IMG/VR virus record: IMGVR_UViG_3300025759_000413
Location: 1 to 31,390 of that record
DNA: 31,390 nucleotides
Source of the DNA: a virus
Reading direction: 5' to 3' (one strand)
Shown here: positions 3,836 to 31,390 of the stretch, piece after piece
How positions within the stretch are numbered: the first letter of the stretch is position 1
Layout of the letters: each line of letters opens with the position of its first letter
Notes under the pieces: generated by a model
The model's database searches: none
Told to the model about the DNA's origin: nothing
Seen by the model: only the letters and a program-made list of their open reading frames with translations
Position numbers and translations under genes: made by a program

Positions 3836-4574
3836 AGCGCTAGTAGATGTAGAAATCATAGCCCACAGGGAGTTGGCAGTAGACCGCCCGCTGCATGTGA
3901 GCATCAAGTCAGCCATAGCCAAGGTCTGGGAGTGGCGTGGATTGTGCGGCATGAAAGAGGTGGTATGCTGCTGGTCATCCAGCAAGAACTTCAGGAAGGT
4001 GCTGAGTGACACCTACAAGGCCCACAGAAGCCCCAAGCCAGAGGGGTATGATGAGATGGTGCACACCCTGATGAACCACTTTCCAGTACAGAAGATCGAG
4101 GGGCTGGAGGCGGATGATGTCATGGGCATCCTGCAGACCAGCAACAAGTTCGGTGAGACACGCATTGTATCTATTGACAAGGACATGCGCACGATACCGG
4201 GCTGGCTGATCAACCCAGACCACTATGATGCAGCAGACTGGCAGGAAAGCTACTGGAAGGTCACGCAGGAAGAGGCTGATCTGTGGCACCTGCACCAGAC
4301 AGTCATTGGTGATACAGCAGATGGATTCAAGGGCATACCTGGTGCCGGCCCCAAGGCTGCCGAGAAGATAGAGTGCTGGGATGATGTTGTAAAACTGGGC
4401 GAGAAGAAGGGTGTGGACGAGGAGTACCTTGTCCTGCAAGCAAGACTGGCCCACATTCTGCGGAGAGATGATTATCTGCACGAGCAGGGTGCGATAAAGT
4501 TGTGGACTCCGCCCGGCCGCACGCAGGAGTTTTTCTCGCTCAAAACCATGGAGGTTTGCGATGCGCCAACTTGA
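3828..4574 (+). CDS. T7 gp6-like 5'-3' exonuclease (FEN/PIN-type)
   Basis: A 248-residue protein from ATG 3828 (MGKALVDVEIIAHREL), overlapping the upstream stop by 8 bases. Conserved metal-ligand blocks of the FEN-type fold are in order: an N-terminal LVDVEI strand (the usual D-G-D is D-V-E here), DTYKAHRSPKPEGY, LEADDVMGIL, RIVSIDKDMRTIPG and GDTADGFKGIPGAGPKAAEKI (the helix-hairpin-helix-like DNA-binding segment). The tail LAHILRRDDY...IKLWTPPG closely follows the end of T7 gp6. In T7 this enzyme removes RNA primers and degrades host DNA. The D-V-E variant at the first motif is worth noting but keeps an acidic residue. Product class is confident; substrate in this phage is inferred. Confidence 0.88.
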   Translation: MGKALVDVEIIAHRELAVDRPLHVSIKSAIAKVWEWRGLCGMKEVVCCWSSSKNFRKVLSDTYKAHRSPKPEGYDEMVHTLMNHFPVQKIEGLEADDVMGILQTSNKFGETRIVSIDKDMRTIPGWLINPDHYDAADWQESYWKVTQEEADLWHLHQTVIGDTADGFKGIPGAGPKAAEKIECWDDVVKLGEKKGVDEEYLVLQARLAHILRRDDYLHEQGAIKLWTPPGRTQEFFSLKTMEVCDAPT

Positions 4575-5076
4575 GCTGCCAACTGAGCAAAGAATTAATG
4601 AATTGCTGGAGTATTGTCCGTACAGCGGCACATTTTTGTGGATTAGGCCAACCAAGCGGTCTATGCGGCACGGCACAATGGCTGGCCACAAAAGCTCTAT
4701 CGGGTATATCCAGCTGCGGATTGACAAGACTCTCTACCTGGCGCACCGCATTGCCTACAAGGTAATGACAGGGGAAGATCCTGACGGCGAGATAGATCAC
4801 ATAGACCACGATAGGTCGAATAACGCATGGGGTAATTTGCGTCTAGTGTCTCATCAAGAGAATTGTAGAAATGTCGGCTTGACTGCTGCCAACAAATCTG
4901 GCATGGTTGGCGTGCGCGTCAGAGCGGATACCGGGCGCTGGACTGCGGAGATTTGTGTTGACGGGCGAAACGTGGTTCTTGGGTCGTTCTCTACAAAAGA
5001 GGAGGCGCTGGCGGCTCGGGTTGCGGCTGAAAAACGGTACGGGTTTTTTGACAACGGGAAAAGGATTATGCCATGA
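4561..5076 (+). CDS. HNH homing endonuclease with AP2-like DNA-binding domain
   Basis: A 171-residue protein. ATG 4561 follows GGAGG at about 6 bases. Residues ~45-105 form an HNH_3-type core: LAHRIAYKVMTG, then EIDHIDHDRSNNAWGNLRLVSHQEN (D79-H80, N92, H98). Residues ~111-165 form an AP2/ERF-like domain (KSGMVGVRVR...WTAEICVDGRNVVLGSFSTKEEALAARVAAEKRYG). The combination is typical of free-standing phage homing endonucleases. It sits between the exonuclease and a four-cysteine gene with 14- and 4-base overlaps, so it was integrated neatly without visible damage to either neighbour. It probably spreads by cutting phage genomes that lack it; the target is unknown. Confidence 0.93.
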   Translation: MRQLELPTEQRINELLEYCPYSGTFLWIRPTKRSMRHGTMAGHKSSIGYIQLRIDKTLYLAHRIAYKVMTGEDPDGEIDHIDHDRSNNAWGNLRLVSHQENCRNVGLTAANKSGMVGVRVRADTGRWTAEICVDGRNVVLGSFSTKEEALAARVAAEKRYGFFDNGKRIMP

Positions 5077-11088: not shown

Positions 11089-14000
11089 CTACTTTTTAGG
11101 CGCTTCTTTTTTGCCAAAGATGCCACCCAGTATATCACCAAGGTTGCTGTACTTACTGTACTGCCCAGCGGCGCTACCAGCACCCATGGCACCATAGATA
11201 TCTGCAGCAACCCCGCCAAGCGTACCCGCACCTGAAGCGGCATTCTGACCAAGCCTTGCAGTCTCAAACAGTTGCTGCCACATTTGCTGGTCGCCGCCCA
11301 TAAGCTCCTGCCAGTATTGAGCCCTGTCCTGCATCTTTTGCTGGTGTTCAGCCATCTTTCTGGCAAACTGCGCCTCGTCCTCAGCGGCCTTTTCACCGAA
11401 GTATTGCCGCCTGACATCCATGCGCTGCTCGTTGCCCGCGAGCTTTCTATCAAACTTGGCTTGATCCTCGGCAAACAGCTCGCTGAATGCCCGCTCTCGG
11501 TTACGCGTTAGTTGATCAAAGGCCATCTGGGCTGCGCTGCCCTGCTCTGCCGCTTGCTGCTGCCTGGTCCCCATGGCCGTATCACGGTCATAAGCACGCC
11601 TCTGCAACTCTTGGGCCAGCCTTGACTGGTTCAGGCCCTCGATGTCGCCCATGGCCCTGACGTAGCTCTTGAACGCGCTATCACGCGCTTCTTGGCTGTT
11701 CAGTCTGCCACGGGCCTTGGACCTGTTTTCAGCCATACGGATGGCATCACCTGTCAGTATATCCCATTCACTGGGCTGACCAGCACCAAACCCGGCTTGG
11801 CTTGGGCCAGCAACCGGGGCATTGGTTGGGTCTGTCAGAGTGGGGCCTGATGGTGCAGCTTGCCGCGTGCCAGGTCGAGTAATCTGCCCATAATTCCAGT
11901 TGCCACCCTGCCCAGCAAAGTCCTGCAGGTTCTGGTAGCCCTGGAATGCCTGCGGGTCTGTCATGCCGCTGCGAACATTGGGCTCGACATTCAGGCCGTA
12001 TAGCGAGGTCGCGCCCTCAATCCAGTCGGGGTCTGTATTCAGGTTCGGGCTGCCAACGCGGGCATCAGGTGTCAGTTGGTTGTTAATAGCATCGGTCAGG
12101 CCGGGTAGCGCACCCTTGCCATGCTCCCAGAATGGTCTTTGCCACTCCTGCAGCTCTCGCTGCCATGCAAGCGCATCCTCTGACGCCTTCTCATAGGCTT
12201 CACCCATCTTATCGGAGGCATACATGTTGATGCCACCCTCAAGGATGCCGCCAAGGTTGGTGCTAATGTTGTTTGTTACTGTGGACAGTATGTCGCCCAG
12301 CCAATCGCCTGGTCCGCTCACGGGGTCCTCCTCGTCACTAACTGGGTCATCGTTGTCATCATTGCCGCCGCCCGGATCAATGATAATGGGCGGGTCTGTT
12401 GGGTCTGGTTCTGGTGTTGGGTCATCATCGTTAATCGGTGGTGGTTCGGGTTCAGGTTGTGGTTCTGGCTCAGGGTCCGGCTCAGGCTCGGGCTCGGGTT
12501 CCGGCTCAGGCGTCACGACAATGGGTGGGAGACCTGGCGGATCATCCTCTGCGGGAGGGGTATCCGTTATGGGCCCAGACGGATTGCTGTCCCCGCCCGT
12601 ATTGCCGCCACCCCCGTCATCTGGGCCGGGCGTAGGGTCTGGATCTGGAAACTGGTCCCACACCCAATCACCCATTGTATCATCCCACGACCATTCACCA
12701 TTATCACTTAACGGTGGCGGCTCCGGGGTGTTGCCGGGGCCCGGCTCCGGGTCAGGCATGGGCGGCGGGTCTGTGACATCGTCATCCAGCATGTCGCCGG
12801 GATCAATCACCACGCCCGTGTCTACATCGCCGTCCCCGGTGTCTGGCTCGGGATCATTCTGGTCCAGTATGTCATCTGGCTGGGGCGGGTTGTTCGGGTC
12901 GTACACCGGACCAGAAACAGGACCGCCCGTGTCCAAGTTGGGGTTCTCCACTATCGGGTCGGTGGGCGCATCCGGGTCTGGGTCATCCTCATCCGGGTCA
13001 GGCACCACAACCACGGGGTTGCCGTTGCCGTCTGTACCGGGCTGCTGTGTGCCGCCTTGTGTTGGGTTGGGATTCCACGCCCCGCCCTCGCCAAACAGGC
13101 CCTCTGCCGCCGCGCCGAGCACGCCCACAGGGATAATGACGTTGCCTATCTGTACGCCAACACTGCCCAGGTTCTCTCCCAGCCAGCCACCAAAGCCGCC
13201 TCCACCAGCATTAGGGTCTGCGCTGGCAACTTCCTCGTTGTAGATGTCCCAAAAGTCCTTGACTTCCTGCCAGTAGGGGTCGTCTAAGTATTCGTCGCCG
13301 CCAAGCAGATCCTGCAGCTCGCCAGTGTCTATATCGACACCTTCAAAGTAGTCGCCTGCAGTCTCTGGATCATCCCAAACTTCGTACTGCTCGCCAGTAA
13401 TGGGGTCGGTAACAAGCGTGCTTTCCCCGAGAGGGTCTATGAGCGGGTCATACCCTTCGTCAGGAACATAAACGGTCTGCAGCCTGCCGTCAGCGTCGTA
13501 AATCTGTATCGGCTTGTATGGCCCCTGCTCGTCATCTGACAGAGCCTCAAAATCCTCTTCCGACAGAACGTCATCCTGCCAGTCCCACTCGCCCTGAGTG
13601 AAGCCATCAGGCGTAATGCTCTCACCCGCAGCATTGGTCCACTTGGTTGTGTCGTTGATGTCAACAACCGTGCCAGACTCATGCTTGGGGGGCTCTGTTG
13701 TCGTGATACCGCTTGCCTCGAGCCACGCATGTAGCTCAGGTGTATCCGGTATAATGCCCAACTGGGCTGCCTGCTGCACCAGCTCAGGCGTATTCGTCGG
13801 AATGGTCTGGATAAACTTCTGTACTGTATCGGCCAAGTCAGGCGGGATGTATACGCCGCCCCAGTTGACGCCAGAGCCCTCTATCCAGCCAGTTTCGCTC
13901 ACCACCTCCCCATCGGGCAGAATGGCCGGGCCGTCATTGCCTACGCCCCCAGGCTGCTGTTCCACGGGGACGCCGCCCCCAGTGCCAACCTCGCCGTTAC

Positions 14001-18752: not shown

Positions 18753-18919
18753 TTGGGCTTCACCTCAAAGTCATGGTCATCTTCTTCTGCCGCGATGGAC
18801 ATGCCCGCACAGGTGCGCACGATGTCGTCCATGCTCATCTTGACAATCTGTTTCCCCTTCCTGACCTTGAACTTCCCGTCCTGGTCAGGCTTTGGGTCTT
18901 TGCGCTTCTTACGAGCCAT
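18749..18919 (-). CDS. Small basic-to-acidic protein between gp4-like and gp10-like genes
   Basis: A 55-residue protein from ATG 18919 (MARKKRKDPKPDQDGKFKVRKGKQIVKMS). The N-terminal half is strongly basic and the C-terminal half acidic (AAEEDDHDFEVKPK). It overlaps the upstream stop by 11 bases and the next gene by GTGA, so it is translated with the neck genes. A DNA- or capsid-binding accessory is plausible, but no family is known to me. Confidence 0.6.
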   Translation of the reverse strand: MARKKRKDPKPDQDGKFKVRKGKQIVKMSMDDIVRTCAGMSIAAEEDDHDFEVKPK

Positions 18920-19871
18920 ATGGGCTGTATCCAAAGTAAACAGAGGCATCGTCCATGTCCCAGCCTTCCAGCAATTCCTTGGTCTGGGCTGCCGTCATCA
19001 ACACTTCCTGGGGTACGGCAATGCCGTACAAGGGGGCTATGCGCACTGCAAGGTTATACACCAAGTATTCCATCCACTCCTGCGGGAAGTTGCTGGTGTC
19101 CGTGTTGGCGGAAATGATCTCAAGCTCGTCCAGATACGTGAGCCTAACCACATCATCAACGGTGCTGGGGGCGGGCCACAAGTACATCACGCCAGCGGCT
19201 TGCTGGGGGTCATAGTAATACTGCACCGGGGTGCCCGTGGCCGTCTTGTTGGGCAGGTTGAAGTATTCCTCTCGAGACAGCATGTGCATCTCGATCTCAT
19301 TGCCGCCATTCTCGCGTCTGGCACTAATCACCTTGAGGGGTCTTGGGCCCGCCGTCGTATACCAGTACACCTTATTGCCAGAGCTGGCCGCACCCGTGAG
19401 GGCGTCATTCAGCGTAACTGTATCGCCCGCAGAGAACGTGCTTATAGTGGACCAGTGAATTGTGTCGTCGTCCTGCACCACCCCTATCACATCGCTGGCA
19501 GCCATAGCCACATCTGTATGCTTGGTGCTGTCGGTGGTGGCTGTTACACTCAGCACCGTCTGCCCTGATGCCTCGTCTGCATCCAGCGTGGTTTCCCCAA
19601 TCTCATCTTCATCAGCAAAGCGTGCGCCCGCCAATTTGTATTGGGCTATACTGTCCTCCAGAAACAGCCTTGCTTCACGCTGCCTCCAAAGACCGAGCCT
19701 CATCTGCTCAGACTTGATCATCAGGTTCAGGGACTCGAGGATCTGGTCCTCTTCCCCGCCAGATGTGGTATCAAGGGTTTCGTCTACCCCAATGATCTTG
19801 ATCAGCCTGGCTGCATGTTCTGCGATCTGCGCGCCTGTTCTGTCGTATGCTGTTACGCCTGATGTTGCCAT
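18909..19871 (-). CDS. P22 gp4-like head-completion (neck adaptor) protein with inserted beta module
   Basis: A 320-residue protein, starting in a TAATG junction. Residues ~10-90 (AEHAARLIKIIGVDETLDT...ESLNLMIKSEQMRLGLWRQREARLFL) are the helical start typical of gp4-type adaptors that bind below the portal. The C-terminal part (VQYYYDPQQAAGVMYLWPAP...RLTYLDELEIIS...FPQEWMEYLVYNLAVRIAPLYGI) also fits the gp4/head-tail adaptor pattern. Between them, residues ~92-172 form an extra beta module (TTLDADEASGQTVLSVTATT...STISTFSAGDTVTLNDAL) absent from P22 gp4 (166 residues) and shared with the upstream gene product. It joins portal and gp10-like hub. The adaptor call is good; the module's role is unknown. 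Confidence 0.8.
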   Translation of the reverse strand: MATSGVTAYDRTGAQIAEHAARLIKIIGVDETLDTTSGGEEDQILESLNLMIKSEQMRLGLWRQREARLFLEDSIAQYKLAGARFADEDEIGETTLDADEASGQTVLSVTATTDSTKHTDVAMAASDVIGVVQDDDTIHWSTISTFSAGDTVTLNDALTGAASSGNKVYWYTTAGPRPLKVISARRENGGNEIEMHMLSREEYFNLPNKTATGTPVQYYYDPQQAAGVMYLWPAPSTVDDVVRLTYLDELEIISANTDTSNFPQEWMEYLVYNLAVRIAPLYGIAVPQEVLMTAAQTKELLEGWDMDDASVYFGYSPYGS

Positions 19872-20866: not shown

Positions 20867-21778
20867 TTAAGCCCCAGGGCTGCCGTACAGCGCTCGGAAG
20901 TCACCGACAGTGAGGCTGAAACGCATGTAAGACTTAGCTTTAGCGTTGTCAGTGTCAAAGTCGTTGTCCTGACTGAACTCAATCGGCTTACGATCAAACA
21001 TAGTCATGCCAGAAGGCGCATCAGTTCGGACGAACCATGCGTCTGCGTCGGTGAAGTAGTTGTTCACCTTCAGGCCGCCGGGGATGGCACCTGAGTTCTT
21101 GATGACGTTGATCGCGTTGTTTGCCGTATCGTTCTGCAGCGAGCTATCCAGAATCCGCTTGGCGTTGAAGTAGTTGCCAGGAGCAACATGCAACGTGCGC
21201 GGAGACAGAGAGATTCGCAGACCACGAGAGTTCTTGGCATTCATAATCTGAATGAGCAGGTCCTCAAGTGATGCTTCAGAAAGGTCAGCAGCCGTGGAAA
21301 GCTCGTTTGACTGGTTACCAGACAGAGTCGGGTGGTCAGTCGCCAGAATTTCCTTGCCGTCGCCAAACGTGTACGAGCTGTTAAAGGCCCTGTTGTAGAC
21401 GTTAGCCGCAACAGTTTCTTTGGTCGTGTACATGCTGAAAGCGTTGGCTTTAGCGCGTGTACCAGATACTTCGAGATACAGGTTATCGTCCATCTCTTCC
21501 TTGGTTACGATGTAACCCAGTGAGTATGCAACGTGCGTAGCTCGAGTAACGGTGCCCTGTGTTTCAGTATCGTATACTGTAGCAGCACCTTCCGACTTAA
21601 CAGGAGCAACGCCGAAGCCAGTGACTTCAACCATTTCCTCATAAGCCTTCTCAGAGCTTACAACATCAAAGAGATCTTTGCATTGCTCGCCGTGAGAGTT
21701 GTAGGTGCGACCCCAGATATCAACAATACCCGGCCACAGGAGTTTAGGGTGGTTGCCTGTACTAATAGGAGCAGCCAT
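20867..21778 (-). CDS. Major capsid protein (HK97-fold)
   Basis: A 303-residue protein with the strongest standard ribosome site in the block (AAGGAGG before ATG 21778), as expected for the most abundant virion protein. The sequence (KLLWPGIVDIWGRTYNSHGEQCKDLFDVVSSEKAYEEMVEVTGFG, YSLGYIVTKEEMDDNLYLEV, VYNRAFNSSYTFGDGKEILATDHPTLSG, ISLSPRTLHVAPGNYFNAKRIL, KPIEFSQDNDFDTDNAKAKSYMRFSLTVGDFRALYGS) follows the pattern of HK97-fold coat proteins related to the Mu gpT/phage head-subunit group. Scaffold, portal and decoration genes surround it. No cleavable N-terminal domain is apparent; a separate scaffold is encoded. Confidence 0.88.
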   Translation of the reverse strand: MAAPISTGNHPKLLWPGIVDIWGRTYNSHGEQCKDLFDVVSSEKAYEEMVEVTGFGVAPVKSEGAATVYDTETQGTVTRATHVAYSLGYIVTKEEMDDNLYLEVSGTRAKANAFSMYTTKETVAANVYNRAFNSSYTFGDGKEILATDHPTLSGNQSNELSTAADLSEASLEDLLIQIMNAKNSRGLRISLSPRTLHVAPGNYFNAKRILDSSLQNDTANNAINVIKNSGAIPGGLKVNNYFTDADAWFVRTDAPSGMTMFDRKPIEFSQDNDFDTDNAKAKSYMRFSLTVGDFRALYGSPGA

Positions 21779-21791
21779 GTGTTATTCCTCC

Positions 21792-22421
21792 TTAAATGCC
21801 GAGCAGACCAGCTCGTGTCGCTGCTTCAGTTGAGATGTTCACACGCACAATAACTTTATTGTGGACGAGGTTAGTCTCATTGTCTGGAGCGTTGTACAGT
21901 CGCGTGATCAACAGCTGGTTAGAGGCATCAGCGGCAGGAGCGTCAGACGTAGTGTCCAGTTCCATGCCGGAGAGGCCAGTGGTAGTGCTGCCGCTATGAG
22001 TAGCAATAAGCACCGCGTTAAGACCAACAGAAGAGGCCGGAACGGCACCATCTGCTTGAATCAGGTATTCCTGATACGGGTCAATGTTTACGAGAGCCAC
22101 GCGGGTCGTGGAAGCAGCACCATAAATGGCACTGTCTCGCGTAGTAGGCAGGAAGCCCACAACGACACCTGTGATTTCGTTTGTATCACCCACAGCGACC
22201 ACGTTGACCTCGGGAAGCGTCCCGATCTCAAATGTGCCACCACCGATTACCGTTACTGCAACATCGTTTGATCCGGCTGCAACCTTAATTACAGGGTCGC
22301 CGATGAATACGCTTGTTGCGTAGTCGGATGGGAGATACATGGGAACAACCTTGCCAGTGCTTACAGAAGAAGCGCCCGACCCGATTGGCTTCAACCCGAA
22401 AGGGGTATCTGCATTAGCCAT
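21792..22421 (-). CDS. Capsid-associated (decoration/stabilising) protein
   Basis: A 209-residue protein starting MANADTPFGLKPIGSG, a signature N-terminus of proteins encoded beside the major capsid gene in many phages. The rest is beta-rich (GDPVIKVAAGSNDVAVTVIGGG, NEITGVVVGFLPTTRDSAIYGAASTTRVALVNIDPYQEYLIQADGAVPASSVGLNAVL), consistent with a capsid surface or minor head protein. GAGGAT precedes its start, and 13 bases separate it from the capsid gene. Function is by neighbourhood and pattern, not by proof. Confidence 0.7.
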   Translation of the reverse strand: MANADTPFGLKPIGSGASSVSTGKVVPMYLPSDYATSVFIGDPVIKVAAGSNDVAVTVIGGGTFEIGTLPEVNVVAVGDTNEITGVVVGFLPTTRDSAIYGAASTTRVALVNIDPYQEYLIQADGAVPASSVGLNAVLIATHSGSTTTGLSGMELDTTSDAPAADASNQLLITRLYNAPDNETNLVHNKVIVRVNISTEAATRAGLLGI

Positions 22422-22462: not shown

Positions 22463-22999
22463 TTATCTGCGCAGGTCGGCATTGTGTGAAATTGATGCCT
22501 TCGAGTAAGTCTTGTCGGACTTGCCCAGGTTGCCTTGGGGATCAAATGAGTTGCCTTGTTGAATTGCCTCATCGAAGAGATCAATGTCCTGTTGCTTCAG
22601 GCGCATGTTCTCCTCGTACCACTCCTTGCGAATTGCCATCAAATAAGCCATGAGCTTGCCGTGCGGGGTGTCACCCACTGGCTTGCTGACCCACTCATCT
22701 TCATGAGCCAGGTCGCCACCGCTTACCTCAATATCGCCCAAGGAGCCGTCTTTCAGGACAGGGATATAGCCTGCATTCAATGCCTGCTGAATACGCTCAC
22801 CATCATGGTTGATCCAGCGACCCACAAACCCCTCGGGGATGCCCGTCACTGCCAGTTGTTGCGTATAACCGCCCATGGGGACGCGATCACCTGCGCGGGC
22901 CTTAAAGGAGCTTGTCCTTGGGTCCTCTCGCCTGGGTTGCTCGCGTTCCGTTACTGCGGTATCCTCTGCCTCTGTGCTTCTCTCTTTACGTGCTGCCAT
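22463..22999 (-). CDS. Conserved protein between scaffold and capsid genes
   Basis: A 178-residue protein, one base after the scaffold stop. The first 35 residues are charged and disordered-looking (MAARKERSTEAEDTAVTEREQPRRED). The core contains LAVTGIPEGFVGRWINHDGERIQQALNAGYIPVL and PHGKLMAYLMAIRKEWYEENMRLKQQDIDLFDEAI. This 'GF-RWINDD-RI--AL-AGY' pattern occurs in proteins near scaffold genes of other podoviruses, with no known function. It may be a minor head or assembly protein. Confidence 0.65.
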   Translation of the reverse strand: MAARKERSTEAEDTAVTEREQPRREDPRTSSFKARAGDRVPMGGYTQQLAVTGIPEGFVGRWINHDGERIQQALNAGYIPVLKDGSLGDIEVSGGDLAHEDEWVSKPVGDTPHGKLMAYLMAIRKEWYEENMRLKQQDIDLFDEAIQQGNSFDPQGNLGKSDKTYSKASISHNADLRR

Positions 23000-23000
23000 G

Positions 23001-23774
23001 TTATGCCTCGTTGTAGAGCCTCAAGTACTCTTCTTTGGTGAAATTGGGGTTGTCTCGGTTAAACCGCTCATAGGCCGCTTTGGCTTCTGGCGGTAACTGG
23101 GAAAACTCCCCGACTGTGCCGCTGGCTGTTTCGCCATCGACTGGGCCCAGATGAGTCCGGGCTTGGAGATGAGTCTGGCGTACCGCCTTGTCGGCAGCCG
23201 CTACAGCTTCCTCAAAACTCAATCCTCGCTCTCCTTGGTATCGCAATTCCTCCTGCCATGCTTGCGCTTTAGCGGCGGTATCAAACAGCTCTGGATGCGC
23301 TTGCTGGTGTTCCTGAAGTCGCTGCACCACAGGATTGACCTCGGGCTGCGGCGGAATGATGGGTTCCGCTTGAGCCTTGTCTCTCTGCTCGGCAAGCTGA
23401 TCAGCGCGCTTGGATGCTGCTGCAAATGCTTCACCATCGGACTCTTCTACTGCTCGTTGCATCTCCGCTTTAGCGTCGGCTATTGCCTTGTCGTAGCCAC
23501 GCTTCATCGCATCTGCACGGGATTTTTCCATGTGTTCAGCCATTGCCTTCTGGACTGCTATTGACTCTGCCAGTTGCTGCTCCAGCTTCTTCACATCTCC
23601 ACGCAGTAGGCCCAGGTGATCCTCTCGCTTGGATAAAAACTCCTCAGCCGATAGACCACCGTCCTTCTCGTACCACCCTACAGCGGAGGCACGTTCTTCT
23701 GGGGAAAGGGCTGCGCCTTGGGCGTCTAAATTCTCCTCCCCCGGAATATGGGTTCCTTGTTCTGCTTCGCTCAT
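23001..23774 (-). CDS. Scaffolding protein
   Basis: A 257-residue protein, acidic and almost wholly helical. Residues ~50-150 form a coiled coil (LGLLRGDVKKLEQQLAESIAVQKAMAEHMEKSRADAMKRG), followed by a Pro-rich break (EPIIPPQPEVNP) and a C-terminal helical region ending FNRDNPNFTKEEYLRLYNEA. The position between portal/co-chaperonin and the major capsid gene, the length, and the composition are those of podovirus scaffolds, which direct procapsid assembly and then leave. The ATG starts in open sequence, and its stop lies one base before the next gene. It overlaps the upstream co-chaperonin gene by ATGA. Confidence 0.8.
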   Translation of the reverse strand: MSEAEQGTHIPGEENLDAQGAALSPEERASAVGWYEKDGGLSAEEFLSKREDHLGLLRGDVKKLEQQLAESIAVQKAMAEHMEKSRADAMKRGYDKAIADAKAEMQRAVEESDGEAFAAASKRADQLAEQRDKAQAEPIIPPQPEVNPVVQRLQEHQQAHPELFDTAAKAQAWQEELRYQGERGLSFEEAVAAADKAVRQTHLQARTHLGPVDGETASGTVGEFSQLPPEAKAAYERFNRDNPNFTKEEYLRLYNEA

Positions 23775-24151
23775 ACCTTGACTCCTGCAATCTCTTTATC
23801 GTTGAATATCATGTACGGTTCACCGTCATCACCGACAAAGCGAAGTCCTGCGAACTCTTTAGTTACAACCCTGTCTCCAGGTTTTGGCTTGATGGCCCAT
23901 GAGATGAGTTCTCCGTTGGCCCTGCGTCCGTCTGTGAACGCCAGCTCTCCGTGAGAAACAATAACCCCAGTCTGAACATTCCATTCCTCCTGGTCCTTTG
24001 CTTCCGTAGGCACGTAAATCCCACCTGATGTCACCTCCTCCACTTTGTCCTTCTTGATGATAACCTTGTAGTCCAGCGCCTGCCAGCCACTTTTGTTGCC
24101 ATCAAACTCAGCGTCGGTGATGGTTAAGCCACGTTTGCTCCTATCTTTCAT
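23771..24151 (-). CDS. GroES-like co-chaperonin (Cpn10 fold)
   Basis: A 126-residue protein. After a 22-residue N-terminal extension the GroES pattern appears: YKVIIKKDKVEEVTSGGIYVPTEAKDQEEWNVQTGVIVSHGE (strand, mobile loop with GGI at 43-45, then the G-V-V-x-G strand), and KPGDRVVTKEFAGLRFVGDDGEPYMIFNDKEIAGVKV (GD-V, AG, EPYMIF, the final 'I-A-V' strand). The central stretch is a few residues longer than in E. coli GroES. It is ATGA-coupled to the scaffold gene below and to a small gene above, within the head operon. By analogy with T4 gp31 it probably pairs with host GroEL to fold the capsid protein; that role is inferred, the family is clear. Confidence 0.87.
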   Translation of the reverse strand: MKDRSKRGLTITDAEFDGNKSGWQALDYKVIIKKDKVEEVTSGGIYVPTEAKDQEEWNVQTGVIVSHGELAFTDGRRANGELISWAIKPKPGDRVVTKEFAGLRFVGDDGEPYMIFNDKEIAGVKV

Positions 24152-24393
24152 TCTGTCTCCTCAAAGATGTCGTCGTATGCGTCGGCAATCAGTGAGTCGT
24201 GAATGGCCAGATAGGCTTCCGCCCTGGCTGTTGTTACCAAAGAATCCGCATAGTATCTATGCGCGTCCTCGTAACCTCTAGGGTCTAGCTCCTCCTTGGC
24301 CCGCTTGAGTTGGTCGTGGCGCTCCTTGAGGAGATCCCTGACCTTGCGAGTTACCGGGTTGGCTGCCCATGCTTCCCATTCGTCCCTTTCCAC
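24148..24393 (-). CDS. Small conserved protein overlapping the portal gene 3' end
   Basis: An 81-residue protein from GTG 24393, with GGAG upstream. The pattern W-AWAANPVTRKVRDLLKERHDQLK (residues 6-30) occurs in small phage proteins encoded next to portal genes. The rest is helical and acidic (YADSLVTTARAEAYLAIHDSLIADAYDDIFEETE). The first 116 bases overlap the portal gene in another frame, and the stop overlaps the co-chaperonin start by ATGA. It may aid procapsid assembly, but no function is established. Confidence 0.65.
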   Translation of the reverse strand: MERDEWEAWAANPVTRKVRDLLKERHDQLKRAKEELDPRGYEDAHRYYADSLVTTARAEAYLAIHDSLIADAYDDIFEETE

Positions 24394-26371
24394 CTAATGA
24401 CTCCGCTTCTGACTTGTACTTGTCTAGTTGGTCGCCCTCTTCAGCGGCTTCAGCATCAGCCAAAGCCTTGATGGCGCTTGCCTCGTTCTTGACAGCGACA
24501 GTCTGTTGCACAATCTGATCGCCCTCAAGTTTCAGCGCCTCCAGCCTCTGCTCACGGGTCTTGTCTTCAAGTTCCGCCTGCATCTGCTGTAACGCTTGTT
24601 GCATCTGCTGCATCTGTTGCTGCAGTTGCTGCACTTCGGGATTCTGACCAGCCTGAAGCTCGTCAATGCCCTCCATGTTTGCACCTTCCCAGATACGCTG
24701 CCGGAGCTTCCATTGGTCGAAGTACGGGTCATTGACCCATTCCTTCACAAAGTCTACTCGCGCAGCCTTCTGCATGTCTGTGGTAACTGAAGGATCACTC
24801 ACTGGCACAAAGTCCAGGTCATCATCGCTAAAGTCCTCAGCATCAAGGCGCTTATCCAGAACCTCTGCGTACAGGGGATTCCGAATCTCGTAGTTCCAGA
24901 AACGAATGAGCTTCAGCTCCTCGCTCAGGGAACGGTGTATTCTCTTGTAAATACCGCTAAACACCTTCAGGCCCTGCTCAATCAAAGCCATGGTCGTGGT
25001 TGCGGTCATTTCACGCTCTGTCTGGCCTTCCAGCACCTCCTTGAGGTTGCCGATATCACGGCCCGCGTCCACCATAAAGCCCAGCAACTGGAACAGCGTA
25101 GGCGACGGCCCATTGAACGGCATCGTGAACACCGACTTGCGGATGTCCTCGCCGGGGTTAGCTACCGACTTATATTCGCCTGGGCTAAAAGTTATAGGCC
25201 CTTTTTTCCTTAATCCGAGATCGCGGCTGATAAAGCCACCTCCAGCATTCTGGAGCGTGCCCGCGTCCATAAGCATGTTTAAAGTGGTGTTTACGACCTT
25301 GTTTACAGGCAACAGGATGTCAAAGAAGCCAATGTCGTAGAAGCACTTGTCCGTGGACGGGATAAAGCTGTACTTCACATAGTATTGGACTGGCTTGATG
25401 CGGGAAATATCCCCATCCTCGTTCTCGTACACATCCTCCATGCGGAAGTTTGGCGCAAGACGCATGACCCGGCTTGATGCCACATGCACCGTAACCAGGT
25501 AGGGCTCTTTGTAGCCATCGCCGTCTAAATCAATATAGCGGCACTGCTCGATGAACTCTTCCGGCTCCTCAGCCTGATCATCATCCAGATCCAGCTCTCG
25601 GTCCACATACATGCCTGAACGAATGCGCTCGGTGATCATTCTGGGGTTGAGCTTAAACACCTTGGTGATCCTGGCAGCGTCACGAATAGAGGCCGTATCG
25701 CATGGTACAACCAGCTCGTCTGGACCCAGCAGCTCGGTCACAATCCTGCGCTTGGACTGGCTATAGTGCACGCACCGGAACATGGTGCCGTACAGCGGCA
25801 GCCTCAGTAATAGCTTGTCGGTGTCTTCTTCCCACTCCACAATCTCGTTGAAGATCTGCCAGTTGATGAACGTCGATACATCCTCGGCGCGGCGCACCTT
25901 CTTGCCAATCTCGGCGTCCAACTGGGCGGCCTGTGCCATGATCTGCGACGCAAGGGCCTGCTTCTGATCTTCTGGCATCTGGGCATTCTTCAGTTGCTCG
26001 GCCTGGGCCTCAATCTCTCTCTTTTGCTCTACAAACGGGTCCTCACCCACCAGCTTGGGGCGAACCACGGAATTGCCCTGCACAATGGATGGGTATGCGC
26101 GCGAGCTAAACTGGACAGCAGCATTGGTCAGCAGCGGGTACTTGATATTGGCCGCATTGCTGAACGGGAAGTCCTTGTTGTCTTCGTTCATCTGGACCAG
26201 CTTCTGGCCCTCTTCCCAGCACTTCTGCTTGGCAACGTACCGCTTATCCTGGATGTCCTCCAGATATTCTTCTACCGCAGCGGCACCAATACCGTCGATG
26301 TTGTCCACCATCTCGGCCAGGTTGCCGTTTGGTGCGGCAAGAATGCCCTCCAGTGTTTGCTTTTCAGCCAT
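24278..26371 (-). CDS. Portal protein (P22-type)
   Basis: A 697-residue protein, near the size of P22 gp1 (725). Sequences such as YVAKQKCWEEGQKLVQMNEDNKDFPFSNAANIKYPLLTNAAVQFSSRAYPSI, VSTFINWQIFNEIVEWEEDTDKLLLRLPLYGTMFRCVHY, YIDLDGDGYKEPYLVTVH, and YDIGFFDILLPVNKVVNTTLNMLMDAGTLQNAGGGFISRDLGLRKKGPI are characteristic of the P22-like portal family. The C-terminal part has a Gln-rich coiled coil (QQLQQQMQQMQQALQQMQAE), fitting the helical barrel, then a low-complexity Gly/Gln/Pro tail that overlaps the next gene. It forms the dodecameric DNA channel at the capsid vertex. Terminase genes were expected upstream but are not in the window. Confidence 0.9.
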   Translation of the reverse strand: MAEKQTLEGILAAPNGNLAEMVDNIDGIGAAAVEEYLEDIQDKRYVAKQKCWEEGQKLVQMNEDNKDFPFSNAANIKYPLLTNAAVQFSSRAYPSIVQGNSVVRPKLVGEDPFVEQKREIEAQAEQLKNAQMPEDQKQALASQIMAQAAQLDAEIGKKVRRAEDVSTFINWQIFNEIVEWEEDTDKLLLRLPLYGTMFRCVHYSQSKRRIVTELLGPDELVVPCDTASIRDAARITKVFKLNPRMITERIRSGMYVDRELDLDDDQAEEPEEFIEQCRYIDLDGDGYKEPYLVTVHVASSRVMRLAPNFRMEDVYENEDGDISRIKPVQYYVKYSFIPSTDKCFYDIGFFDILLPVNKVVNTTLNMLMDAGTLQNAGGGFISRDLGLRKKGPITFSPGEYKSVANPGEDIRKSVFTMPFNGPSPTLFQLLGFMVDAGRDIGNLKEVLEGQTEREMTATTTMALIEQGLKVFSGIYKRIHRSLSEELKLIRFWNYEIRNPLYAEVLDKRLDAEDFSDDDLDFVPVSDPSVTTDMQKAARVDFVKEWVNDPYFDQWKLRQRIWEGANMEGIDELQAGQNPEVQQLQQQMQQMQQALQQMQAELEDKTREQRLEALKLEGDQIVQQTVAVKNEASAIKALADAEAAEEGDQLDKYKSEAESLGGKGRMGSMGSQPGNSQGQGSPQGAPRPTQAGQGGARP

Positions 26372-27775: not shown

Positions 27776-27873
27776 AGAATCGCCCCCAGCAGCATTAGAG
27801 CAAGAAGAAACCCCAGACCAACCCCAAGCAAGAAAACAAATCCAAATGCCGTTGCTACTGCATGACCAATCAT
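27772..27873 (-). CDS. 33-residue membrane peptide between fibre and downstream genes
   Basis: The ORF starts at the ATG of an ATGA overlap with the fibre stop and ends in TGA overlapping the next start (also ATGA). It encodes MIGHAVATAFGFVFLLGVG... and continues with a hydrophobic run to ...LLGAIL, giving one membrane segment covering residues ~5-33 with no charged residue in it. The weak GCAGGTAGC before the start suggests coupled translation from the fibre gene. Hydrophobic peptides of this size in phages can be holin-like, single-gene lysis, or virion membrane proteins; the sequence does not decide. Confidence 0.55.
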   Translation of the reverse strand: MIGHAVATAFGFVFLLGVGLGFLLALMLLGAIL

Positions 27874-30800
27874 AGTGTTGCTACCTGCGCGTCAGTGAGC
27901 CGCTTGTTGAATATCTTGACGTTGCGGATTGTGCCGTAGGGTTGCGCTCCGCTGGCGTTATTGGCTCCAATTTGTATGGTTGTAGGAGGGTCGGGATCAG
28001 GAGTTACGTCTGTATCTGCCGCGCCCTGTGATAAACCATCTATATAGAGTTGTGCGTCATTCGTGAACGAAACAAAGGTAATGGACTGCGTGACCCCTAT
28101 GATTGAATCGTTTGTGGCAGTTTCAACCGCCTTGTTTGTGCCATCCGAAGAAACAACACCAGTTATAGAGCCGTCGCTACCTGTCTCAATGTAAACAGGC
28201 TCATTAGAATCACCATCATGGATAGACAGCACTTGGGTGTTGGTTGAAATCTGCCCCGGCGTGTACTCCAAATGCTGAGTTCGACCATACGGAGCATTCC
28301 CCACTGCGCTATAGGTCAGAACATCAGCATTGCGTGTGGCGCTGGTAGTTGTGGTAGGGATGTAGGTGGTGGGGAAGGAGCCGGATTCTACTTGTGCGCC
28401 CCATACGAGGATTGAGGAGGTGCCGTCTAGGTCTACTGTAGTGCTTCCGTCCGTTGACGCAACGTGGATTCTAGCAGTACCAGCAAGGTCGGAAGTAGTT
28501 GTGAATGTTACTGCTACACGATAATAACCATAAGCCGTTGGCACCGGGTCGTGAACCGTATGGTTTGATGAAACAGTACCCCACGCCCCAGTAGACATAT
28601 TGAAATAGGACAACCCGTTGGCCGTTCCATCAAAATTTTCAATTCTGATAACACACATGCCTAACTGGTCGGCTTTGACGTGCCAACTGTATGTTGATGC
28701 CCCGCTACTAACAGTCAGGTTTTGCTGCAAACTAACAACCCCTGTTCCAGTAGCCCCATCATCAATCAGCCTAACCGCCGTCTTTGTCCCATCCGGCGCA
28801 ATGGCGTAGTTCGCCACAGGGGTCGCATTCGTATCCGTCCACGTAGTCCCCAAATTCCCCGGAGTGGAGTACAACGCCAGATTAGTCCCAGCCTGCTCAC
28901 TCAGATACCCCAATGGCCCTGAAGCATCCCAAGGTGACGGGATGTTCTGCTCGATGGAGCAATTTCCATTCTGCGTCCAGACCTCGCCTGTGGAGGCTGT
29001 GGCTGTTGTAACGCCGGGGGTGAAGGTTCTTGCGTCATAATCGACAACAGGGACAGCGGCGGTTGATCCTATCGTTGTAAACAGGGCCATGCGATTTGCG
29101 GTGCCACTCTGAACCAACCCCGTACCTGTTTGCGTCGATCCAACCTCAATGACAGCCGTACTGTCAAACATGCTTGTTATGCTGTTTGTTACAGCAACAG
29201 GATCGCCAAACTGCACCCATGTGATTTCGCTATATGGTGTCCACGGCGAATCGTCGGAAATGTAGAAAGTGACCTCTGCCTCAGAAGCGTCATAGTCTGC
29301 TCTTGCCCAATGAATAGAGCCGTTCTGGAATCCAGTCGCGGCATCGCTTGATGCGGTTCCAGTTGTTGCGCCACCTGTTGCCCCGTTAGAGGATACGGCA
29401 AACCTCAGAGTACCGTCTGCGTTTACGTCGAATATAAAAGTTGCTTGAGAGCCCGTTCCTGTCCACTTGGAAACCATCGCTTGATTTGAAGCGGGAGTCC
29501 AATCATCGAAAGAGCCATTCCAAACTGCGATAAGATCAGTCGTTCCAATATCAACATCAGGCGTAGAGATGTAATCCCCACTCGACCCCGGAAAATCCCC
29601 CCACTTCGCCAGTGGCGAGAAGGCTTTGGCTGTGCCGTTGAGCGTCCAGAGGTCGGGGAGTTCTATGACTGAGATTCCAGAAACTGTGCCATCAAAACTG
29701 GCCGCGCTAAAAAGCATAATCCGATCACTTAACGCTGTTCCGGTGTCTGGAGTGAGGATTATCCTGTAGTCGCCATTAGCGGTAATGTTGGAACTTACAC
29801 CCGCCAAAGCCGATCCATAAATATAGAACTGGAAAGTGCCAGAAGAATAGTTAGAGACAGTGAACTCTACCGCGCAGTTTTTGCCGTTTTTTATACTGCC
29901 CGAATCAAGATCAAACTGTACTTGGGCAGAATTTGTGCCGTCGCATGTGAATGTTCCATCTCCGTTATCAGTCCATCCTGACTGGACGGTATCGGCAACA
30001 CCATCCCATAACTCCCCATTACTCTCCTTCTGGCTCTGAGTCTCCCATGTCACTCCTGCCTCATAGTCATTCGCATTGAAATCGACTACGGGATCAGCAG
30101 TTGGGTCTGTGGATGCGATGACGAGGGCGCGGGAGATTTTGCCTACGCACAAATCAGACGTTCCTGATAGCGTTGATCCTATTTCGATGGATGCCGTGGT
30201 GTCTGCGATTGATGTTGTCCCGCCAACAACTACAGTCTCCCCTAACTGAGTCCATGTGATATTTGACGGACTTGAGTTAATAGGATCATCAGACACATAA
30301 AACGTAACGATGTGACTGCCTGAGCCGTTGTCAACGTCAAGGGTTGCACGAACCCAATGCCCTGTTCTATCGCCAAAGCCTGTCCCTTGCGTGGACACCT
30401 GTCCAATCGTATTGGTTCCGTCTGCTGACCAATAAATGCCCAACGCCCCACCAGATTCCACTCTGAACTGATAGCTGTTATCTGGGTCTGCCTCAAACTT
30501 GGCTACTATTGCGTTATTGCTGCTTGGCGTCCAGTCCTCTAGTGCAAGCCACCCAATTATGGTTATATCACCCGTAACACTATTCGCAGCATTATCAGGC
30601 GTGCTGACATAGCACCCCGAAGTCCCATCCAACTCTACCCACTGGCTCGTTGATGAGTTAATCGCTGGCCCTGTGGCCTCTGTGACTACGCCTGTAGAGG
30701 CTACGGTATTACCATTGTGATAATTGAAAGCCTTGACCCCATCTCGATTGAGGCCGTGGTCGGCTTCTTTGACTGAGATCGAATAGTAACTAACATCTGA

Positions 30801-31390
30801 GTTGGCTGCGTCATTCCAAAGAGCCACATGAGTTGTGTCTGCTGTTGCTGTAAAAGTTACGCGGAATGTAGAGCGTGTGGTGGTAGCGGTGTACGCAGTT
30901 AGATACGTCTGGTCTGTTCCCGCCGAGTTGGTCGGCCCAACATTGATAACCTCTGTGCCAGACGCAGCAGCAGCCTCTACCTCTAAAACATAATCCTTGC
31001 CCACGGTAGGCGCAGTCGGCATCGCTCTGAAGGCGCGACCATCCGTATCCACCCGCGCTATCCGGTAGTGGTCTGTATCAAACTCGAAGGTGTCAGCAAA
31101 AGATGACCAGCTTCCGGTTTCGTCTGTATCTAGCGCGGCTTGCGGCGAGTATTCGGTTGCGCCTGTCTGAACACCCGTAGAGACATACTCAGAGGGCGCG
31201 TGTGTGATGTTGCCTGTGACTTCTTCAAGTTGCCATTTGGTGATTTCGAGGGTTACTGCATCGTCGCAAACTATCTTCGGTGTTACAACCGTTCCGGCTG
31301 CGTCGGTGGATGCCGTAACTGCAAATCTTGCAGGCGTGGCGCTCAAAGACGAGCCTATGTCCTGAGTGGTCAGCGTCCCTATTGCGCTGC
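27870..31390 (-). CDS. Multi-domain tail fibre or receptor-binding protein with LamG-type repeats (5' end missing)
   Basis: The frame is open from the right edge (31390) to TGA at 27870. TTG 31346 is an internal codon, not a convincing start, because the frame continues upstream without a stop (SAIGTLTTQDIGSSL before it). Counting from 31346: residues ~80-195 are a carbohydrate-module-like sandwich; LamG-type domain A ~238-449; a second sandwich ~450-565; LamG-type domain B ~585-793; a third sandwich ~815-995 ending in the typical fibre motif ILVWGAQVE...FPTTYIPTTTTSATRNADVLTY; and a last LamG-like domain ~1000-1155 ending TIRNVKIFNKRLTDAQVATL. Such chains bind host glycans. Its N-terminal attachment domain lies outside the window. 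Confidence 0.75.
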   Translation of the reverse strand, partial: SAIGTLTTQDIGSSLSATPARFAVTASTDAAGTVVTPKIVCDDAVTLEITKWQLEEVTGNITHAPSEYVSTGVQTGATEYSPQAALDTDETGSWSSFADTFEFDTDHYRIARVDTDGRAFRAMPTAPTVGKDYVLEVEAAAASGTEVINVGPTNSAGTDQTYLTAYTATTTRSTFRVTFTATADTTHVALWNDAANSDVSYYSISVKEADHGLNRDGVKAFNYHNGNTVASTGVVTEATGPAINSSTSQWVELDGTSGCYVSTPDNAANSVTGDITIIGWLALEDWTPSSNNAIVAKFEADPDNSYQFRVESGGALGIYWSADGTNTIGQVSTQGTGFGDRTGHWVRATLDVDNGSGSHIVTFYVSDDPINSSPSNITWTQLGETVVVGGTTSIADTTASIEIGSTLSGTSDLCVGKISRALVIASTDPTADPVVDFNANDYEAGVTWETQSQKESNGELWDGVADTVQSGWTDNGDGTFTCDGTNSAQVQFDLDSGSIKNGKNCAVEFTVSNYSSGTFQFYIYGSALAGVSSNITANGDYRIILTPDTGTALSDRIMLFSAASFDGTVSGISVIELPDLWTLNGTAKAFSPLAKWGDFPGSSGDYISTPDVDIGTTDLIAVWNGSFDDWTPASNQAMVSKWTGTGSQATFIFDVNADGTLRFAVSSNGATGGATTGTASSDAATGFQNGSIHWARADYDASEAEVTFYISDDSPWTPYSEITWVQFGDPVAVTNSITSMFDSTAVIEVGSTQTGTGLVQSGTANRMALFTTIGSTAAVPVVDYDARTFTPGVTTATASTGEVWTQNGNCSIEQNIPSPWDASGPLGYLSEQAGTNLALYSTPGNLGTTWTDTNATPVANYAIAPDGTKTAVRLIDDGATGTGVVSLQQNLTVSSGASTYSWHVKADQLGMCVIRIENFDGTANGLSYFNMSTGAWGTVSSNHTVHDPVPTAYGYYRVAVTFTTTSDLAGTARIHVASTDGSTTVDLDGTSSILVWGAQVESGSFPTTYIPTTTTSATRNADVLTYSAVGNAPYGRTQHLEYTPGQISTNTQVLSIHDGDSNEPVYIETGSDGSITGVVSSDGTNKAVETATNDSIIGVTQSITFVSFTNDAQLYIDGLSQGAADTDVTPDPDPPTTIQIGANNASGAQPYGTIRNVKIFNKRLTDAQVATL

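Follow-up and report, generated by a model that had tools for sequence, protein, structure and literature searches.

Head operon and co-chaperonin gene

The window (the whole stretch of viral DNA that was analysed) is a 31,390-base virus record, possibly a fragment. The genes of a head operon run along its minus strand in the order portal, 81-aa frame, Cpn10, scaffold, p178, p209 and coat. This bears out an earlier sequence-only reading, which had put the Cpn10 gene between the portal/81-residue protein and the scaffold, beside the capsid gene:

24278..26371, minus strand: portal-like head-tail connector, 697 aa, 78.6 kDa (phrog_332, 2.6e-11; tblastn to annotated portals)
24148..24393, minus strand: small upstream frame, 81 aa as called (conserved in L101, L102 and L021)
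24157..24162, minus strand: ribosome-binding site GAGGAG of the Cpn10 gene, 5 nt ahead of the ATG (direct sequence reading)
23771..24151, minus strand: Cpn10/GroES co-chaperonin gene, 126 aa, 14.0 kDa (Pfam PF00166, PHROG 3188, AF2 model)
23001..23774, minus strand: scaffold-like coiled-coil protein, 257 aa; 4-nt overlap (ATGA) between its start and the stop of Cpn10
22463..22999, minus strand: p178, conserved head-module protein, 178 aa (between scaffold and p209 in 189/193 loci)
21792..22421, minus strand: p209, conserved head-module protein, 209 aa (phrog_37556, 8.9e-13; in 193/193 loci, immediately before the coat)
20867..21778, minus strand: major capsid protein, HK97 fold, 303 aa, 33.1 kDa (weak matches to the Mu gpT Pfam family and phrog_371; model)

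The 81-aa frame overlaps the 3' end of the portal gene and its true start possibly lies further in. The product of 23001..23774 has no family match, and its position and composition suggest a scaffold role; p209 is a possible decoration protein. Neither the coat nor the portal gave a convincing sequence match to a solved structure; the coat fold was assigned from an AlphaFold2 (AF2) model (pLDDT 87), for which the Foldseek matches are the capsids of D3 and HK97.

The Cpn10 frame begins with an ATG on the minus strand. The sequence-only reading had found it at exactly 23771-24151 without giving a strand, and the plus strand of the same interval is interrupted by stops. An ATGA overlap joins the gene to its neighbour at each end. 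Compared with its two nearest relatives (76% and 68% identical) the gene has dN/dS values of 0.11 and 0.07, with dS near saturation. These values indicate purifying selection and, on this comparison of sequences, the frame is a genuine gene.

Predicted fold, mobile loop and roof

The protein matches the Pfam Cpn10 family (PF00166; E 3.4e-12, 46.7 bits against a cut-off of 21.1), with residues 25-124 aligned to positions 4-92 of the 93-position profile, and PHROG 3188, 'co-chaperonin GroES' (E 1e-12). All 76 members of the family alignment match the same Pfam profile. An AlphaFold2 model of the single chain, built from this 76-sequence alignment, has a mean pLDDT of 89, and its top structural matches are all Cpn10 proteins (Z 8.5–11.0; the next unrelated fold scores Z 6.3), consistent with a predicted GroES beta-barrel. 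The nearest solved chains by sequence are algal, bacterial and mitochondrial Cpn10s. T4 gp31 (1g31) was not among the matches in this profile search of solved structures and was found by fold instead, with Z 9.6 and an rmsd of 1.9 Å over 72 residues for gp31 in its GroEL complex, and Z 8.5 for free gp31; gp31 is itself only 14% identical to GroES (PMC6318259). The Cpn10 pattern with GGI mobile loop and closing strand, read earlier from the letters, thus reappears in the Pfam and PHROG matches and in the predicted barrel, and a model lacking that barrel, which would have spoken against the assignment, was not obtained. Judged from sequence and predicted fold together, it is near certain that the protein is a GroES-type lid.

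Four parts of the chain bear on how such a lid might work:

24086..24151, minus strand: N-terminal extension, residues 1-22, ahead of the Cpn10 domain (domain match starts at residue 22-25)
23966..24040, minus strand: mobile loop, from GGI (residues 43-45) to the conserved Gly62, with 17 residues between G44 and G62
23978..24007, minus strand: predicted helix, residues 49-58, in the lengthened stretch past the mobile loop (AF2 model, alignment)
23879..23947, minus strand: roof segment, residues 69-91 (alignment)

The mobile loop of the window protein reads TSGGIYVP and keeps the GG and the hydrophobic GroEL-contact residues; the contact positions are hydrophobic in 118 of 143 phage relatives. 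The protein shares with cellular GroES/Cpn10 the domain, the GGI mobile loop, the closing strand and the predicted barrel, but differs in its N-terminal extension and in the distance from GGI to the next glycine. This distance, which depends on the alignment, is 17 residues in the window and in 123/143 phage Cpn10s and 18 in a further 17 (140/143 at 17–18), against 13 in 18/18 cellular Cpn10s, a mostly alphaproteobacterial set. The window is therefore four residues above cellular Cpn10. T4 gp31 departs from GroES in the same part of the protein, with a mobile loop of 22 residues rather than 16, and lacks roof loops altogether (PMC6318259), whereas the roof segment of the window protein is longer than that of GroES: 23 residues, compared with 17 in 16 of 18 cellular Cpn10s and 18 in most relatives, and longer too than in the annotated phage proteins. 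The four-residue lengthening of the mobile loop marks the whole phage clade; the six-residue-longer roof is absent from most of it.

The sequence-only reading had proposed that the N-terminal extension and a longer central stretch adapt the chaperonin cage to a capsid monomer. The extension, for which order is predicted from about residue 11, is conserved only in L101 and L102 and is missing from MW202785 and MW202796, which keep the same gene layout; across the family alignment such extensions differ widely. This part of the proposal is not supported, and the 'longer middle' resolves into the clade-wide change in the loop and the more restricted change in the roof described above. Enlargement of the cage for the coat is a weak explanation in any case. 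T4 gp23 (~56 kDa) exceeds the GroEL-GroES cage and gp31 is thought to be necessary for it (PMC6318259), whereas the window coat, at 33.1 kDa, lies well below this size and makes a larger cage unnecessary.

The head-module Cpn10 of Alcaligenes phage vB_Af_QDWS535 (L007 3531-3872) has lost the GGI and gained an insertion in the mobile loop, so the textbook loop is not kept by every member; judged from its sequence, this protein may have a different mode of GroEL binding, or none.

Linkage to one coat clade

A tblastn search with the window Cpn10 finds annotated co-chaperonins in phage records, and a coat search finds 21 phage records, of which a representative of each type was inspected; nearly all have Cpn10 upstream of scaffold and coat. 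The order from Cpn10 to coat is as in the window in MW202785, Roseobacter phage CRP-902, MW202796 and Caulobacter phage RW. An annotated GroES in the same place, with a homologous coat, is present in HTVC023P/HTVC027P, CRP-901/902, RW, Planktothrix phage Pag-Yong1, vB_Af_QDWS535 and MW202785. Those annotated relatives that were aligned are about 29–41% identical to the window Cpn10. The window shows the pattern of the HTVC023P/CRP-901/MW202785 coat clade, i.e. Cpn10, scaffold, p178, p209 and coat on one strand with a loop spacing of 17, and differs from CRP-901/902 in that its portal adjoins the Cpn10 block rather than lying at a distance. The core genome shared by 82 HTVC023P-type pelagiphages comprises 13 genes, GroES being one of them (PMC9599517), and the gene is also marked in the CRP-901 group (PMC10149686). 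Neither the gene nor its annotation is therefore new; what this analysis adds is its tie to one coat clade and its absence beside a sister clade. Pseudoalteromonas siphovirus B8b also encodes a GroES among its structural genes, which was matched in the structural search of viral models, but there its place is in the tail region, beside the tape-measure gene (PMC4294664), unlike the head operon of the window.

We used the coat as bait to search IMG/VR and GTDB genomes; using Cpn10 itself would have been circular, and an alignment of five Cpn10 sequences proved too diverse to search a collection with. Because the scans retain the best-scoring relatives, the counts apply to the closer members of the coat family, and many records are fragments; loci were counted only where at least 4 kb of upstream sequence was available. 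Within these bounds Cpn10 lies upstream of the coat in 156/158 loci: in all 94 viral loci, on the same strand and with a median distance to the coat of 2.06 kb, and on the coat strand in 62 of 64 genome loci. The two exceptions are a chimeric contig and an N-gapped contig. In the genome contigs L229 and L235 a coat gene of this family runs into chromosomal sequence unrelated to it or into stretches of N, probably through faulty assembly. Downstream of the coat, Cpn10 was found in 0/85 viral and 0/52 genome loci, and the same profile, which detects an Acinetobacter GroES at 1.4e-17, found none at control loci with T7 or P22 coats. The record CAKLQH020000021.1 (L018, 'Acinetobacter phage MD-2021a') served only as a cellular control; the stretch read holds only bacterial chromosomal genes (acrB, glpQ, groL-groS, pckG) and the record looks mislabelled as phage.

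The order portal, Cpn10, scaffold, p178, p209, coat is not rearranged in any of 193 loci, across which Cpn10 sits a median of 4 nt from the scaffold frame and the portal, where seen, can be as far as 3.7 kb from it. CRP-901 has about 10 kb between portal and Cpn10, yet Cpn10 still stays with scaffold and coat. Cpn10 and coat distances correlate (rho 0.65), and exactly one Cpn10 is present in each of 15/15 whole phage records. Cpn60 (GroEL) was searched for as a phage-encoded partner in 37 records, and none was found; the window has a single Cpn10 and no Cpn60. Bacterial isolates with such prophages retain their own, much higher-scoring Cpn10; for metagenome-assembled contigs the host names may be wrong. 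Chaperonins of the virioplankton have reportedly been surveyed by Marine et al. (ISME J 2017).

We also took a quasi-random sample, 45 longer contigs from IMG/VR chosen by a shared arbitrary 14-mer. Five carry Cpn10; all four in which the coat region was read have this coat, and a further one holds a close Cpn10 copy. In one sampled contig the coat is 33% identical and Cpn10 is missing, and the idea that Cpn10 is universal for this coat fold was rejected. With that coat as bait we found a sister clade, 28–36% identical to the window coat, in which 47/47 loci with at least 4 kb of sequence have no upstream Cpn10. A homologous portal and, at many loci, p178 occur there in the same order, with a portal-to-p178 gap of about 0.8 kb, compared with 1.5 kb in the Cpn10-bearing clade. 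Sixteen of 18 whole records of the sister clade lack any Cpn10, and the other two carry one elsewhere, with the cellular loop length. A like coat without a head-module Cpn10 means that the fold class as such does not require the co-chaperonin. In a quick coat tree with SH-aLRT support only, the Cpn10-less rows all fall on one side of a branch (support 76) with only vir526 among them, which suggests about one gain or loss of the gene.

Cpn10 genes outside the head module occur in distant relatives (L602, G095:C1:30188-30478; L603, G096:C1:35337-35558; L450 3700-4164, MW202601.1), and the cellular loop length of those in G095 and G096 suggests separate acquisitions. The divergent archaeal virus vir526 (L015, BK063670.1), assigned to Methanomicrobiales, has a groS at 11827-12183, upstream of the terminase and away from the head block; it is of cellular loop length and falls among cellular Cpn10s.

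The coat as probable client

Placement beside scaffold and coat had been taken in the sequence-only reading as a strong hint to the substrate. The linkage now extends over 156 of 158 loci, far beyond one genome; the identity of the substrate is what we infer from it. We consider it likely that the phage makes a GroES-type heptameric lid together with its head proteins, that this lid caps the host GroEL, and that it chiefly serves to fold the HK97-fold coat. The Cpn10 would be co-produced with the head proteins from the translationally overlapping operon and would assemble into a heptamer, its retained hydrophobic mobile loop would bind host GroEL, and the resulting chamber would mainly fold the 33-kDa coat, for which hundreds of copies would be needed at once. 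The support is a Cpn10 identified by sequence and predicted fold, purifying selection, a place in the head operon, a tie to one coat clade and the finding of no GroEL in the records searched. The precedent of T4 gp31 in coat folding, also invoked earlier, is sound (PMC6318259): both are phage-encoded proteins of Cpn10 fold that work, or would work, with host GroEL, although the T4 coat is about 56 kDa and the window coat 33 kDa.

A broader role is unlikely, but has some evidence in its favour. The protein could be a general co-chaperonin for host GroEL, an extra or altered lid serving many phage proteins or the infected cell, with its place in the head operon reflecting late expression. Consistent with this, gp31 can take over from GroES for every cellular substrate (PMC6318259), and B8b (beside its tape-measure gene; PMC4294664), MW202601, G095 and G096 carry Cpn10 away from the coat. 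Set against it are the invariant place beside scaffold and coat within the clade and a presence that tracks the coat clade, while the scattered genes of G095 and G096, with their cellular loop length, look like independent captures.

Linkage alone does not single out the coat, since all genes after the portal are linked and the immediate neighbour of Cpn10 is the scaffold. Another head protein (scaffold, p178, p209 or portal) could then be the main client, and the overlap with the scaffold gene and the presence of p178 and p209 in the same block would fit this. We regard it as distinctly improbable. The portal is often apart from Cpn10 and at 78.6 kDa is above the cage size; the Cpn10-less sister clade has homologues of p178 and the portal and also of the coat, and this comparison does not discriminate.

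Less probable still is a barrel that has taken on a structural or assembly role in the head or neck and has lost its GroEL function. In favour of this, the phage records searched gave no GroEL and the N-terminal extensions are highly variable, but the mobile loop, which is useful only for GroEL, keeps its GG and hydrophobic contacts in most members, and the prophage hosts retain their own Cpn10, so that a partner GroEL is expected there. That the gene is a passenger recently taken from a host, with no special role, can be dismissed: most bacterial control genomes do have a Cpn10 from which it might have come, but dN/dS is about 0.1, retention is 156/158, hosts keep their own copy, and cellular Cpn10s cluster together (100/99) apart from the phage proteins, with only the long-branched vir526 inside (81-column unrooted tree, in which the phage Cpn10s may or may not form one clade), which argues against recent capture.

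How the association with a coat clade arose can be suggested only tentatively. We think it possible, if somewhat doubtful, that an HK97-fold coat lineage became dependent on a private GroES through one gain at the root of the clade, with the longer mobile loop fixed simultaneously and the gene hardly ever lost afterwards in phages infecting many hosts; the sister lineage, whose operon is the same, would fold its coat without one. If this were true, the coat clade and its sister would be a natural experiment on the acquisition of chaperonin dependence. Phage co-chaperonins were known before, and in one pelagiphage group GroES had already been listed among the core genes; its near-invariable retention by one coat clade, next to a Cpn10-less sister of the same gene order, provides matched pairs in which the need of a coat for its own GroES, and the coat features behind that need, become directly testable. 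Caulobacter phage RW and its relatives, which grow in a laboratory host, offer a cultured model for this pairing of Cpn10 and coat.

Other features of the window

Two further pairs of genes on the minus strand share sequence:

27870-31346, minus strand: LamG-bearing tail protein, 1158 aa
15924-18752, minus strand: head-closure protein, 942 aa
19871-20335, minus strand: 154-aa protein sharing a domain with the SU10-type adaptor
18909-19871, minus strand: SU10-type adaptor

The phrog_578 match of the head-closure protein is confined to residues 542-931; about residues 305-493 form an additional region with 30% identity to repeats of the LamG tail protein. The adaptor shares a stretch of about 76 residues (93-168) with the 154-aa protein next to it, at 57% identity. 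An HNH endonuclease with an AP2 domain (4561-5076, plus strand), encoded in the replication half of the window, adjoins a 5'-3' exonuclease gene, lies upstream of a DnaB helicase gene and is probably a homing endonuclease.
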